Assembly: GCA_016223135.1 (NCBI GenBank)
Contig: JACRPQ010000004.1
Coordinates: 372,001-436,000 of the forward strand
Source of the DNA: Chloroflexota bacterium
GTDB taxonomy: Bacteria; Chloroflexota; Anaerolineae; Anaerolineales; Villigracilaceae
DNA: 64,000 nt
Reading direction: 5' to 3'
The notes below the pieces were generated by a model that was not told the DNA's origin, ran no database searches, and saw only the letters and a program-made list of their open reading frames with translations. Each line of letters starts with the position of its first letter. The stretch's first letter is position 1. The translations under genes were made by a program, and so were the position numbers. Positions 35,086 to 36,640 of this stretch are shown here, piece after piece.

Positions 35086-35237
35086 TTAGAAGCGCAGGAG
35101 ACGTTCTCTCACAGGTCTGCCGGCGTAAGCCTGCCCTGAGCCTTGCCGAAGGGAGAACACCTTCCACCAAGGGCACAAAAGCCACGAAGTTTTGTAAAGC
35201 TACCTTGTGCCGAATTTCAAGATTCTGAATTTTTCCT
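35086..35237. repeat. mosaic of short repeats upstream of secA
   Basis: It contains GACGTTCTCTC (partial TCTCTA hairpin), GCCTGCCCTGAGCCTTGCCG (35129-35148, the repeat also inserted in mutM) and ACCAAGGGCACAAAAGCCACGAAG (a repeat also between the fumarase genes, 35167-35190). No gene is seen. Confidence 0.5.
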
Positions 35238-35356
35238 CTAGCCACCCGACACTTTTGTTTTGGGACGCAGATGAACGCTGATTTGCGCTGATTTAGTTTT
35301 TTTTCTGCGTTTATCTGCGTTTTTCAGCGTCCCATTTGAAACTGTCAGGTCGCTAG
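35238..35356. mobile_element. 119-bp MITE-like element with 8-bp target duplication
   Basis: The ends are imperfect inverted repeats of about 30 bp: CTAGCCACCCGACACTTTTG and, inverted from the right end, CTAGCGACCTGACAGTTTCA, each leading into GGGACGC. It is flanked by perfect direct repeats TTTTTCCT at 35230-35237 and 35357-35364. The interior is a palindrome of the GACGCAGATGAACGCTGA type. It has no coding capacity, so it would depend on a transposase elsewhere. Confidence 0.85.
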
Positions 35357-35467
35357 TTTTTCCTTTGGGAATTTCTCTGTGTACTTTGTGCTCTTCCTGG
35401 ACGATCGTCTTTGTGCAGTGGACTTACGTGTGTTTCAGAAACAAAAACGACGCGGCGCGCCGTCTCT

Positions 35468-35644
35468 TCAGCGGGCTGGGCGCTTTGACTCAGCCGCTGC
35501 ATTTGATGAAGCCCTCGCTGTCTCGACCTGTCGCAGGTATGTGCGGCGGCGCATTCGCAGCATTCTGGCAGGGTAACGGCTCTCGAGGTGTTTCAGGGTG
35601 GAAAGAATCTTCAGAATACTGCGGTCGCTGAACTTCGATTTCAC
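35468..35644 (-). CDS. 58-aa partner of the ECF sigma factor, probably a truncated anti-sigma-type gene
   Basis: A GTG start overlaps the sigma gene stop by 4 bp (GTGA), which strongly suggests coupled translation. The product reads VKSKFSDRSILKILSTLKHL, then ESRYPARMLRMRRRTYLRQV, and ends AESKRPAR. In my recollection Chloroflexota ECF sigma genes are often followed by a membrane protein whose N-terminus has a similar short helical segment ending in a YPxxLLxxRRxxF-like motif; here the frame stops before any membrane span. It may be a remnant, possibly shortened by element insertions nearby, or a genuine micro-protein. Confidence 0.55.
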   Translation of the reverse strand: MKSKFSDRSILKILSTLKHLESRYPARMLRMRRRTYLRQVETARASSNAAAESKRPAR

Positions 35645-36207
35645 AAGTCGTCCTGTTCACTGCCAATTTGATGTTCGAGAGCCTTTCTCAATTTGGCAAT
35701 GCCGCGGTTCTGGATGACCTTCACGTTGTTGACTTCCTTGCCGATGATTTGCGCCGTTTCCTTGAGGCTGAAATCCTCCAAGAAACGCAGGATGATGACG
35801 TGCCGCTGGTCTTCGGTCAATTCCGAGTTCATGGCAGAGACCAGCGCCTCCATCAGCACGCGTTCCTCGATCTGGGTCGCTGTGGAAACGGTGCGTTCCT
35901 TTTCCTGGACGTTGATTGCCACATCCAGCGGCGCGGTGTGTTTGTTGCTGCGCGAGCGGTCCACCACCAGGTGGTAGGCGGTCTGGTACAGGTAGGAACG
36001 CAGGTTGGTGCGAGGACCCTTCCCATTGGCAAATTGTTCCAGAAGTTGGGAAAACACATCGCCGACAATGTTATCCGCCTCAATGGGGTCGTGACACAAC
36101 CGCAAGGCGTATTTGTAAATTGCCGGCGCATACGTATCGAAGATGGCGGTAAGCGCCTCTTCGTCCAGTTTTTGCGCGGCTTTCAATAGAGTAACCCCGT
36201 CGTTCAT
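35641..36207 (-). CDS. ECF-type RNA polymerase sigma factor
   Basis: Protein of 188 aa beginning MNDGVTLLKAAQKLDEEALT. Region 2 is IFDTYAPAIYKYALRLCHDP..ADNIVGDVFSQLLEQF, and region 4 is LTEDQRHVIILRFLEDFSLKETAQIIGKEVNNVKVIQNRGIAKLRKAL. No region 1 or 3 is present. The ATG at 36207 gives the usual ECF N-terminus; a GTG 8 codons upstream is possible but has no ribosome site. The gene is bracketed within 1.4 kb by two copies of a transposon-like element. Its own target promoters were not identified. Confidence 0.9.
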   Translation of the reverse strand: MNDGVTLLKAAQKLDEEALTAIFDTYAPAIYKYALRLCHDPIEADNIVGDVFSQLLEQFANGKGPRTNLRSYLYQTAYHLVVDRSRSNKHTAPLDVAINVQEKERTVSTATQIEERVLMEALVSAMNSELTEDQRHVIILRFLEDFSLKETAQIIGKEVNNVKVIQNRGIAKLRKALEHQIGSEQDDL

Positions 36208-36405
36208 GATGGCAAGCGACTCCCAATCCACAAAAAGGCTTGTTCGACAGTAAAATAATTGTGATACATAAAGGCTGAGTTGACATTTGTATTATAAACC
36301 GTCCTGCTCCGATGGTCTAATCAAAAACGGAGGAATTATGGGGGATTGGCGCTTCGTTGGGTTTCTTATATTACAACGCAAATTCCGACAGACACTCAAG
36401 GTTTT

Positions 36406-36632
36406 CTAGCCACCCGACGCTTTTGTTTTAGGACGCAGATGAACGCTGATTTAAGTTATTTTTTCTTCTTTACCGTATACAGAAACCCTAAAGGTCTGCT
36501 TTCCCTTCGTGAATTTGAGAATTTCCAAAAAGACCTTTAGGGTTTTTCACGAGAGAAATGTACAGTAGAGAGTTTTTTTTCTGCGTTTATCTGCGTTTTT
36601 CAGCGTCCCATTTTAAACTGTCAGGTCGCTGG
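36406..36632. mobile_element. 227-bp derivative of the 119-bp element with its own 8-bp target duplication
   Basis: Both ends match the element at 35238-35356 almost base for base, from CTAGCCACCCGAC to GCTGATTTA and from GTTTTTTTTCTGCG to CAGGTCGCTGG. About 108 bp of extra sequence lies in the middle. It is flanked by perfect direct repeats AAGGTTTT at 36398-36405 and 36633-36640. The extra part contains a perfect 15-bp inverted repeat, AAACCCTAAAGGTCT (36483-36497) with its complement at 36531-36545, a stem also found inside acnA. Confidence 0.85.
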
Positions 36633-36640
36633 AAGGTTTT

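Follow-up and report, generated by a model that had tools for sequence, protein, structure and literature searches.

The two short elements that lie on either side of an ECF sigma factor gene in the window (the whole 64,000-nucleotide stretch of Chloroflexota DNA that was analysed) are independent insertions. Sequence comparison makes it very probable that both belong to one non-autonomous MITE family, here called family A, which would have been moved in trans by an IS4-family transposase. The candidate enzyme is encoded by an insertion sequence (IS) of 1.19 kb found in related genomes. Below, loci and genomes carry L and G numbers, G000 being the window's own genome.

Two mini-elements on either side of a sigma factor gene

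The first element, A1, is a plain A-type MITE of 119 bp (35238–35356, forward strand) that forms a hairpin over its full length and lies between perfect copies of the 8-bp target duplication TTTTTCCT (35230–35237 and 35357–35364). It begins with the terminal inverted repeat CTAGCCACCCGACACTTT (35238–35255, forward strand) and finishes with CTAGCGACCTGACAGTTT (35339–35356, reverse strand), and between these is a palindromic core (35262–35333) made of two inverted arrays of decamers, ACGCWGA plus three bases, with a 10-bp period. The second element, A2, is a composite A-type MITE of 227 bp (36406–36632, forward strand) between two copies of the duplication AAGGTTTT (36398–36405 and 36633–36640), and nested within it is another MITE, B (36466–36572, forward strand), which has the ends TTCTTTACCGTA... 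and ...TACAGTAGAGAG and a strong hairpin. The ends of A1 and A2 are near-identical (CTAGCCACCCGAC... and ...GTCAGGTCGCTAG), A2 terminating in GCTGG, and neither interior has a recognisable transposase gene or any other gene. The first-pass annotation had placed both elements and both perfect duplications at exactly these coordinates and had described them as non-coding MITE copies with near-identical inverted ends, all of which holds; both copies are real, but the element B that causes the extra length of A2 had been missed. Another interspersed repeat (CCACCAAGGGCACAAAAGCCACGAAG..., 35160–35209) adjoins A1 in the window, and at L053 an A copy sits in a relative of this repeat, the uninterrupted site having a single AAACTTCG (78% identity, 50 bp).

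Family A is abundant in the genome of the window. An 18-bp end pattern, allowing up to two mismatches, occurs at 139 places in 3.8 Mb, or about 70 elements, and a control pattern in which the end is read backwards occurs at one. A1 has an identical copy at G000:C1:155124, and a search of its own genome with the A1 sequence gave at least 41 matches (40 of 105 candidates scored). From the matches listed we compiled a set of 65 elements shorter than 400 bp in which both ends are recognised with no more than four mismatches in the two together. Four elements with one recognisable end each (L019, L040, L041 and L072) were omitted and double readings at L036, L059 and L063 were removed, the reading removed at L059 having the better duplication. 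The 65 elements, among the matches listed, are 86–258 bp long with inverted ends. Their 8-bp duplications are perfect in 38 cases, have one mismatch in 11 (49 of 65 at one mismatch or fewer) and have two or more in 16. Pairing left and right flanks across different elements as a control gave one perfect match in 4160 pairs, so that 0.016 perfect duplications, and 0.58 at one mismatch or fewer, would be expected per 65; the flanks of none of the 65 match over 9 bp. Shifting the boundary by up to 3 bp, which favours chance matches too, turns six of the 16 poorer copies perfect (L017, L022, L029, L030, L033 and L066), and the remaining ones look decayed or rearranged. The target consensus is symmetric, with TA, then 8 bp passing from A-rich to T-rich, then TA. 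Relatives also carry related ends with 8-bp duplications. Short, non-coding, bounded by inverted ends and dispersed with target duplications, family A is a family of MITEs.

It might be argued instead that A1 and A2 are REP-like palindromic units with a host function, such as in transcription termination or at mRNA ends, and that their direct repeats arose by chance in A/T-rich DNA. The hairpins are very stable, as this reading would have it (the RNA fold of A1 is at -52.3 kcal/mol, with z of -8.97), and long open frames are avoided: among 61 A copies with enough flank, eight lie within open reading frames of at least 200 codons and 16 within frames of at least 150 codons, the figures for 500 random window positions being 401 and 433, in a crude test that takes open frames instead of gene annotation. 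However, such avoidance is equally expected from selection against gene breakage. A chance origin of the direct repeats is rejected by the flank-swap control, given the excess of perfect repeats at 8 bp and their absence at 9 bp in the 65 listed elements, and neither the ends held in common with an IS nor the empty site of one copy (both described below) fits the REP-like reading. We consider it very unlikely, although the elements could have a host role in addition to transposition.

The empty site lies in Anaerolinea sp. isolate TT109_57_62 (G008), the closest relative by sigma protein. There the flanks of the copy at L033, which in the window's genome are ATGCAGAT and ATGCAGAG, are joined at the orthologous position by a single 8-mer, GTGCAGGT, slightly diverged. 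The first-pass annotation had advised a check for empty sites in relatives, and had held that transposition would be in doubt if element-free relatives already had the 8-bp repeats in duplicate or if further copies were lacking. The single 8-mer at this site and the roughly 70 elements in the genome are the opposite of both, and together with the duplication statistics they uphold its view that these are MITEs and that transposition was real. A search for precise empty sites of A1 and A2 gave none, G008 being the closest relative compared. That genome is without A1 and A2, yet the intergenic DNA around both differs as well (between aligned blocks, 76 bp against 424 in the window and 12 bp against 397), and because this surrounding DNA has also turned over, the site in G008 is not clean. 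Reconstructed empty sites gave only weak matches among all loci examined, and these were within the genome (L053 and L026). At the site of the A copy of L031, the closest relative (L204:1650–2001) holds elements of the C type described below, so different mini-elements have hit one spot.

The gene between A1 and A2 (35641–36231, reverse strand) is an ECF sigma factor gene, as annotated at first pass, its product matching both Sigma70_r2 and Sigma70_r4 above cut-off; it lies outside any mobile unit, and its bracketing by two copies is coincidental. The arrangement does resemble a composite transposon that has A1 and A2 as its two ends and the sigma gene as cargo, since two like-oriented copies lie on either side of one gene with their outer ends 1395 bp apart. 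Each copy, however, has a complete duplication of its own, the outermost flanks mismatch at six of eight positions, and by simple arithmetic about 70 copies in 3.8 Mb should include one or two pairs at such a short distance. We also compared the sigma locus, over a short stretch, in 12 genus relatives that encode a full-length protein close to the sigma factor. All 12 align at the downstream gene and 10 at secA, on the other side, and A-type ends (up to three mismatches) were found within 1.5 kb either side of the sigma gene in none of the 12. Because its neighbours are conserved in relatives without A-type ends, the sigma gene is ancestral and is not cargo. Given two different duplications and an ancestral gene order, we reject the composite transposon, which we hold to be next to impossible.

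The candidate driver in related genomes

It is often difficult to link orphan MITEs of bacteria to a transposase. In the case of family A, the driver is most likely an IS4-family IS of 1.19 kb found in relatives, judging from the sequence of its ends and of its enzyme. A decayed element of 1585 bp with transposase parts (L114, in G014) was found from relatives with single ends, and of 150 genomes examined in the family, 33 have homologues of its N-terminal frame at E ≤ 1e-10. Elements of 1188–1195 bp with perfect 8-bp duplications occur at six loci (L131, L133, L135, L137, L138 and L141); their inverted ends match at 16 to 18 of 18 positions, and each has a stop-free transposase frame of 363–388 codons. 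The element of L137 has CTAGCCACCTGACAGTTT at both ends (18/18), and other ends deviate, reading ACCAGACA in L131 and L133 (the IS of the closest relative), ACCGTACA in L135 and ACATGACA in L138. The L137 transposase scores 165.5 with the IS4 model NF033591 (cut-off 152) and 38.5 with PF01609, DDE_Tnp_1 (cut-off 23), and those of L131 and L135 likewise exceed both cut-offs. Residues D107, D170, Y266, R269, E273 and K280, which make up the DDE triad and the Y-2-R-3-E-6-K signature, are invariant in all nine aligned transposases. By signature, curated models, size and duplication length, the enzyme that goes with A-type ends belongs to the IS4 family. A search by sequence for solved structures resembling it found none, with five weak matches, to Rab-33B.

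The IS66, ISL3, IS256 and IS1595 families make 8-bp duplications, and it was on this ground that the first-pass annotation had named them. That any of them moved the A elements is extremely improbable: ISs with matching ends encode an IS4-family enzyme, the transposases of L137, L131 and L135 gave no match to the models of the four families, and among the elements examined CTAGCCACC ends were never seen on an IS of any of the four. On the strength of the IS4-family enzyme within ISs with matching ends, all four are rejected.

Relatives of the IS4-family transposase are encoded at 66 loci in a collection of named genomes, and 53 of the titles name Chloroflexota or members of it. Of the 47 loci examined, 43 have an IS of 1165–1204 bp by the boundaries of the scan, and 26, including the six above, have duplications of at least 8 bp with one mismatch or fewer, in a scan that favours longer overlaps, has no chance control and yields values of 10 or more partly from shifted ends. 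Copies that have CTAG as their end have 8–9-bp duplications. A single genome, Anaerolineae bacterium isolate FR_5, has nine loci at which an IS has ends of the CTAGCYACCGGACACT type (L235–L237, L244, L249–L252 and L255); their duplications are often of 9 bp, and one end of L244 departs. The interior of A has no likeness to the IS beyond about 18 bp of end, and an origin of A as a simple internal-deletion derivative is for this reason rejected.

The search for a transposase gene between A-type ends that was recommended at first pass succeeded in relatives and failed in the window's own assembly. In the latter, no transposase was matched by profile at E ≤ 1e-3 (none of six candidates), nor any homologue of the L114 frame at E ≤ 1e-10, and a profile search of 18 genus genomes gave matches in five, G000 not among these. 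A-type ends occur in 15 of 120 genomes, and the overlap with genomes that have a close transposase is small. IS and MITEs are found together in G014, where the IS is decayed, and in G133, where contigs break inside the IS and their ends bear terminal repeat and transposase pieces; G013 has only a distant transposase fragment. The G000 assembly has 19 contigs and 98% completeness, and absence from it is weak evidence because short-read assemblies can lose multi-copy ISs; either family A is orphaned in this genome or the IS is unassembled there.

We propose that the IS4-family transposase would recognise the 18-bp ends (CTAGCCACCTGACAGTTT in L137) in trans and would move the A element, duplicating 8 bp of a target that is A/T-rich and flanked by TA, and we infer that an enzyme of this type moved the A copies seen here. 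A likely driver of an orphan MITE family can in this way be named, and it is testable.

Composite elements and a core shared among different ends

Element B represents a separate family, with 8-bp duplications of its own at L049 (ATCATCCA) and L072 (TTTTTGAA), and at its ends it is similar to a second IS4-like clade (L147 and L148; TTCTCTACCGTACA, 8 bp). Two other elements were recognised within A by eye, C flanked on both sides by TGATTTAA and D by AAGTT; in plain A copies the C and D insertion site is unduplicated. The A+B composite is present at four places (the window, L017, L018 and L019) and, among the matches listed, the A+D composite at 13, with perfect A duplications at 12 of them. 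Composites with the same internal junctions occur at many sites, flanked by A-type duplications. Because the same A+B and A+D composites recur at multiple sites, they must have moved after nesting, and from the A-type duplications we infer that the ends of A did the moving: A copies would take up other MITEs (B, C or D), and A's ends would then carry the whole composite. One A+D composite with perfect ends (L045:643–872) has the flanks AAAATTTA and TTTTAAAT, which are base-by-base complements with no direct repeat, possibly reflecting a rearrangement between copies. At L065:269–443, L087, L115 and L116, A-type ends enclose a different interior (GAGTAGGCGATG... and GTATCGAAACC-like).

The core of A is in turn found between other ends. 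We refer to the terminal repeats of a given transposase as its coat, coat I being the A-type ends. The periodicity of the core shows at a shift of 10, where 22 of 28 and 15 of 19 positions match. Of 301 genomes searched in the phylum, 13 have its exact pattern, and 10 of the 13 belong to the window's family. Reading 30 of these core loci revealed the core between ends other than A's as well, and at least four other types of terminal repeat enclose it, one of them that of IS982. Coats II (TTCTCTACCGTACA) and III (TGATTACCTTACA) bound IS4-like ISs, and the coat III elements of L152 and L155 have 9-bp duplications; the enzymes of these clades have NF033591 as their best model, at 150.8 (L149) and 129.8 (L154) against a cut-off of 152, and both exceed the PF01609 cut-off. 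The ends of a 965-bp element in L339 are coat V (ACGTSAGTTCGGGWTA), and its 221-residue frame scores 169.6 for IS982 (cut-off 130). Mini-elements with coat IV (TAGACTTTATCGG) occur in 48 of 150 genomes and have several different interiors (L272, L298 and L302–L331). In G000, coat V ends also delimit a second large MITE family (48 ends, duplications of about 5–7 bp; L003:2171–2271, L029, L034 and L046).

Among elements found by their ends alone, the core is present in 9 of 20 with coat IV and 8 of 22 with coat V (L356 and L359 being one element), against a background of 2 in 530 flanking windows and 3 in 600 shuffles; coats I, II, IV and V carry other interiors besides the core. A strict scan for ends plus 8-bp duplications around 36 core loci (L010–L015 and L272–L301) found coat I or II in three, a scan that misses known A copies (L294 and L300) and other coats, which lack 8-bp duplications. 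No coat was visible by eye around the cores of L276 and L282–L284.

We compared the cores of 42 elements, a small sample of hand-chosen loci with coats assigned by loose patterns, in which repeated decamers inflate identity. Median identity was 0.65 for different coats in different genomes (569 pairs), 0.66 for different coats within one genome (18 pairs), 0.63 for one coat across different genomes (247 pairs) and 0.83 for one coat within one genome (27 pairs), against 0.47, with a maximum of 0.57, for shuffled cores. Across genomes, then, coat does not predict core; within a genome it does. The latter agreement is as expected of recent amplification and argues against very frequent exchange. 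The best pairs across coats reach 0.93 (L345 with coat V and L308 with coat IV; L312 with coat III, exact ends, and L301 with coat V), and coats IV and V within one genome have core identities of 0.91 in G004 and 0.90 in G013. The comparison suggests that cores and ends are exchangeable. We put forward tentatively, leaning slightly against it ourselves, the proposal that these MITEs are modular. A shared pool of palindromic cores, chiefly the inverted array of ACGCWGA units with its 10-bp period, would be exchanged among the coats of three IS4-like clades, of IS982 and of the TAGACTTTATCGG type, the core being a module, selfish or useful to the host, that persists by switching from one transposase to another, and nesting with subsequent re-mobilisation would be one visible route. 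If cores are so exchanged, bacterial MITE families should not be classed by their interiors, and the exchange would account for the persistence of mini-elements after their driver is lost.

Comparison with known systems

The accessible part of De Palmenaer et al. 2008 (PMC2266710) gives duplications of 7–13 bp and sizes of 1150–5400 bp for the IS4 family (Table 1), and the partner IS lies within both ranges and encodes a DDE enzyme with the complete YREK signature. With the ISPepr1 subgroup, described there as having sizes of 1500–1600 bp, YT-AA-YTT ends and 7–8-bp duplications, it shares 5'-CT ends, A/T-rich targets and 8-bp duplications, but not size or end sequence. For the IS50 (1350–1550 bp) and IS10 (1200–1350 bp, 9-bp duplications) subgroups the same part of PMC2266710 gives ends in CW/CT and duplications of 8–9 or 9 bp; the partner IS has ends that start with CT and duplications of 8–9 bp, but a size just below the range. 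Ends of the IS4Sa subgroup start with CA. Compared by description, the partner IS (CTAGCCACCTGACAGTTT ends, 1.19 kb, 8(–9) bp) fits no single IS4 subgroup of the table as given in that part of PMC2266710. It is possibly an undescribed IS4 subgroup, found mostly in Chloroflexota. As for the mini-elements, the MITE-like repeats of Thiohalocapsa, as presented in the accessible part of PMC10907252, are different from family A. The titles and abstract openings of the papers listed, in which the core sequence is unsearchable, gave no Chloroflexi MITEs with IS4 ends and no cores shared by different ends.

Bacterial MITEs, for example those of Pseudomonas syringae, are short and non-coding, with inverted ends, target duplications and many copies, and family A is like them in each of these respects. 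Unlike them, it has an interior unrelated to that of the partner IS, a core that also lies between the ends of other families, and composites of one MITE inside another that have moved as a whole. Nested or composite MITEs are familiar from eukaryotes, where one mini-element inserts into another and is amplified along with it. The A composites resemble these in that a mini-element lies within a mini-element and the two are amplified together, but they are bacterial, and at least three guest families occupy a single host family.
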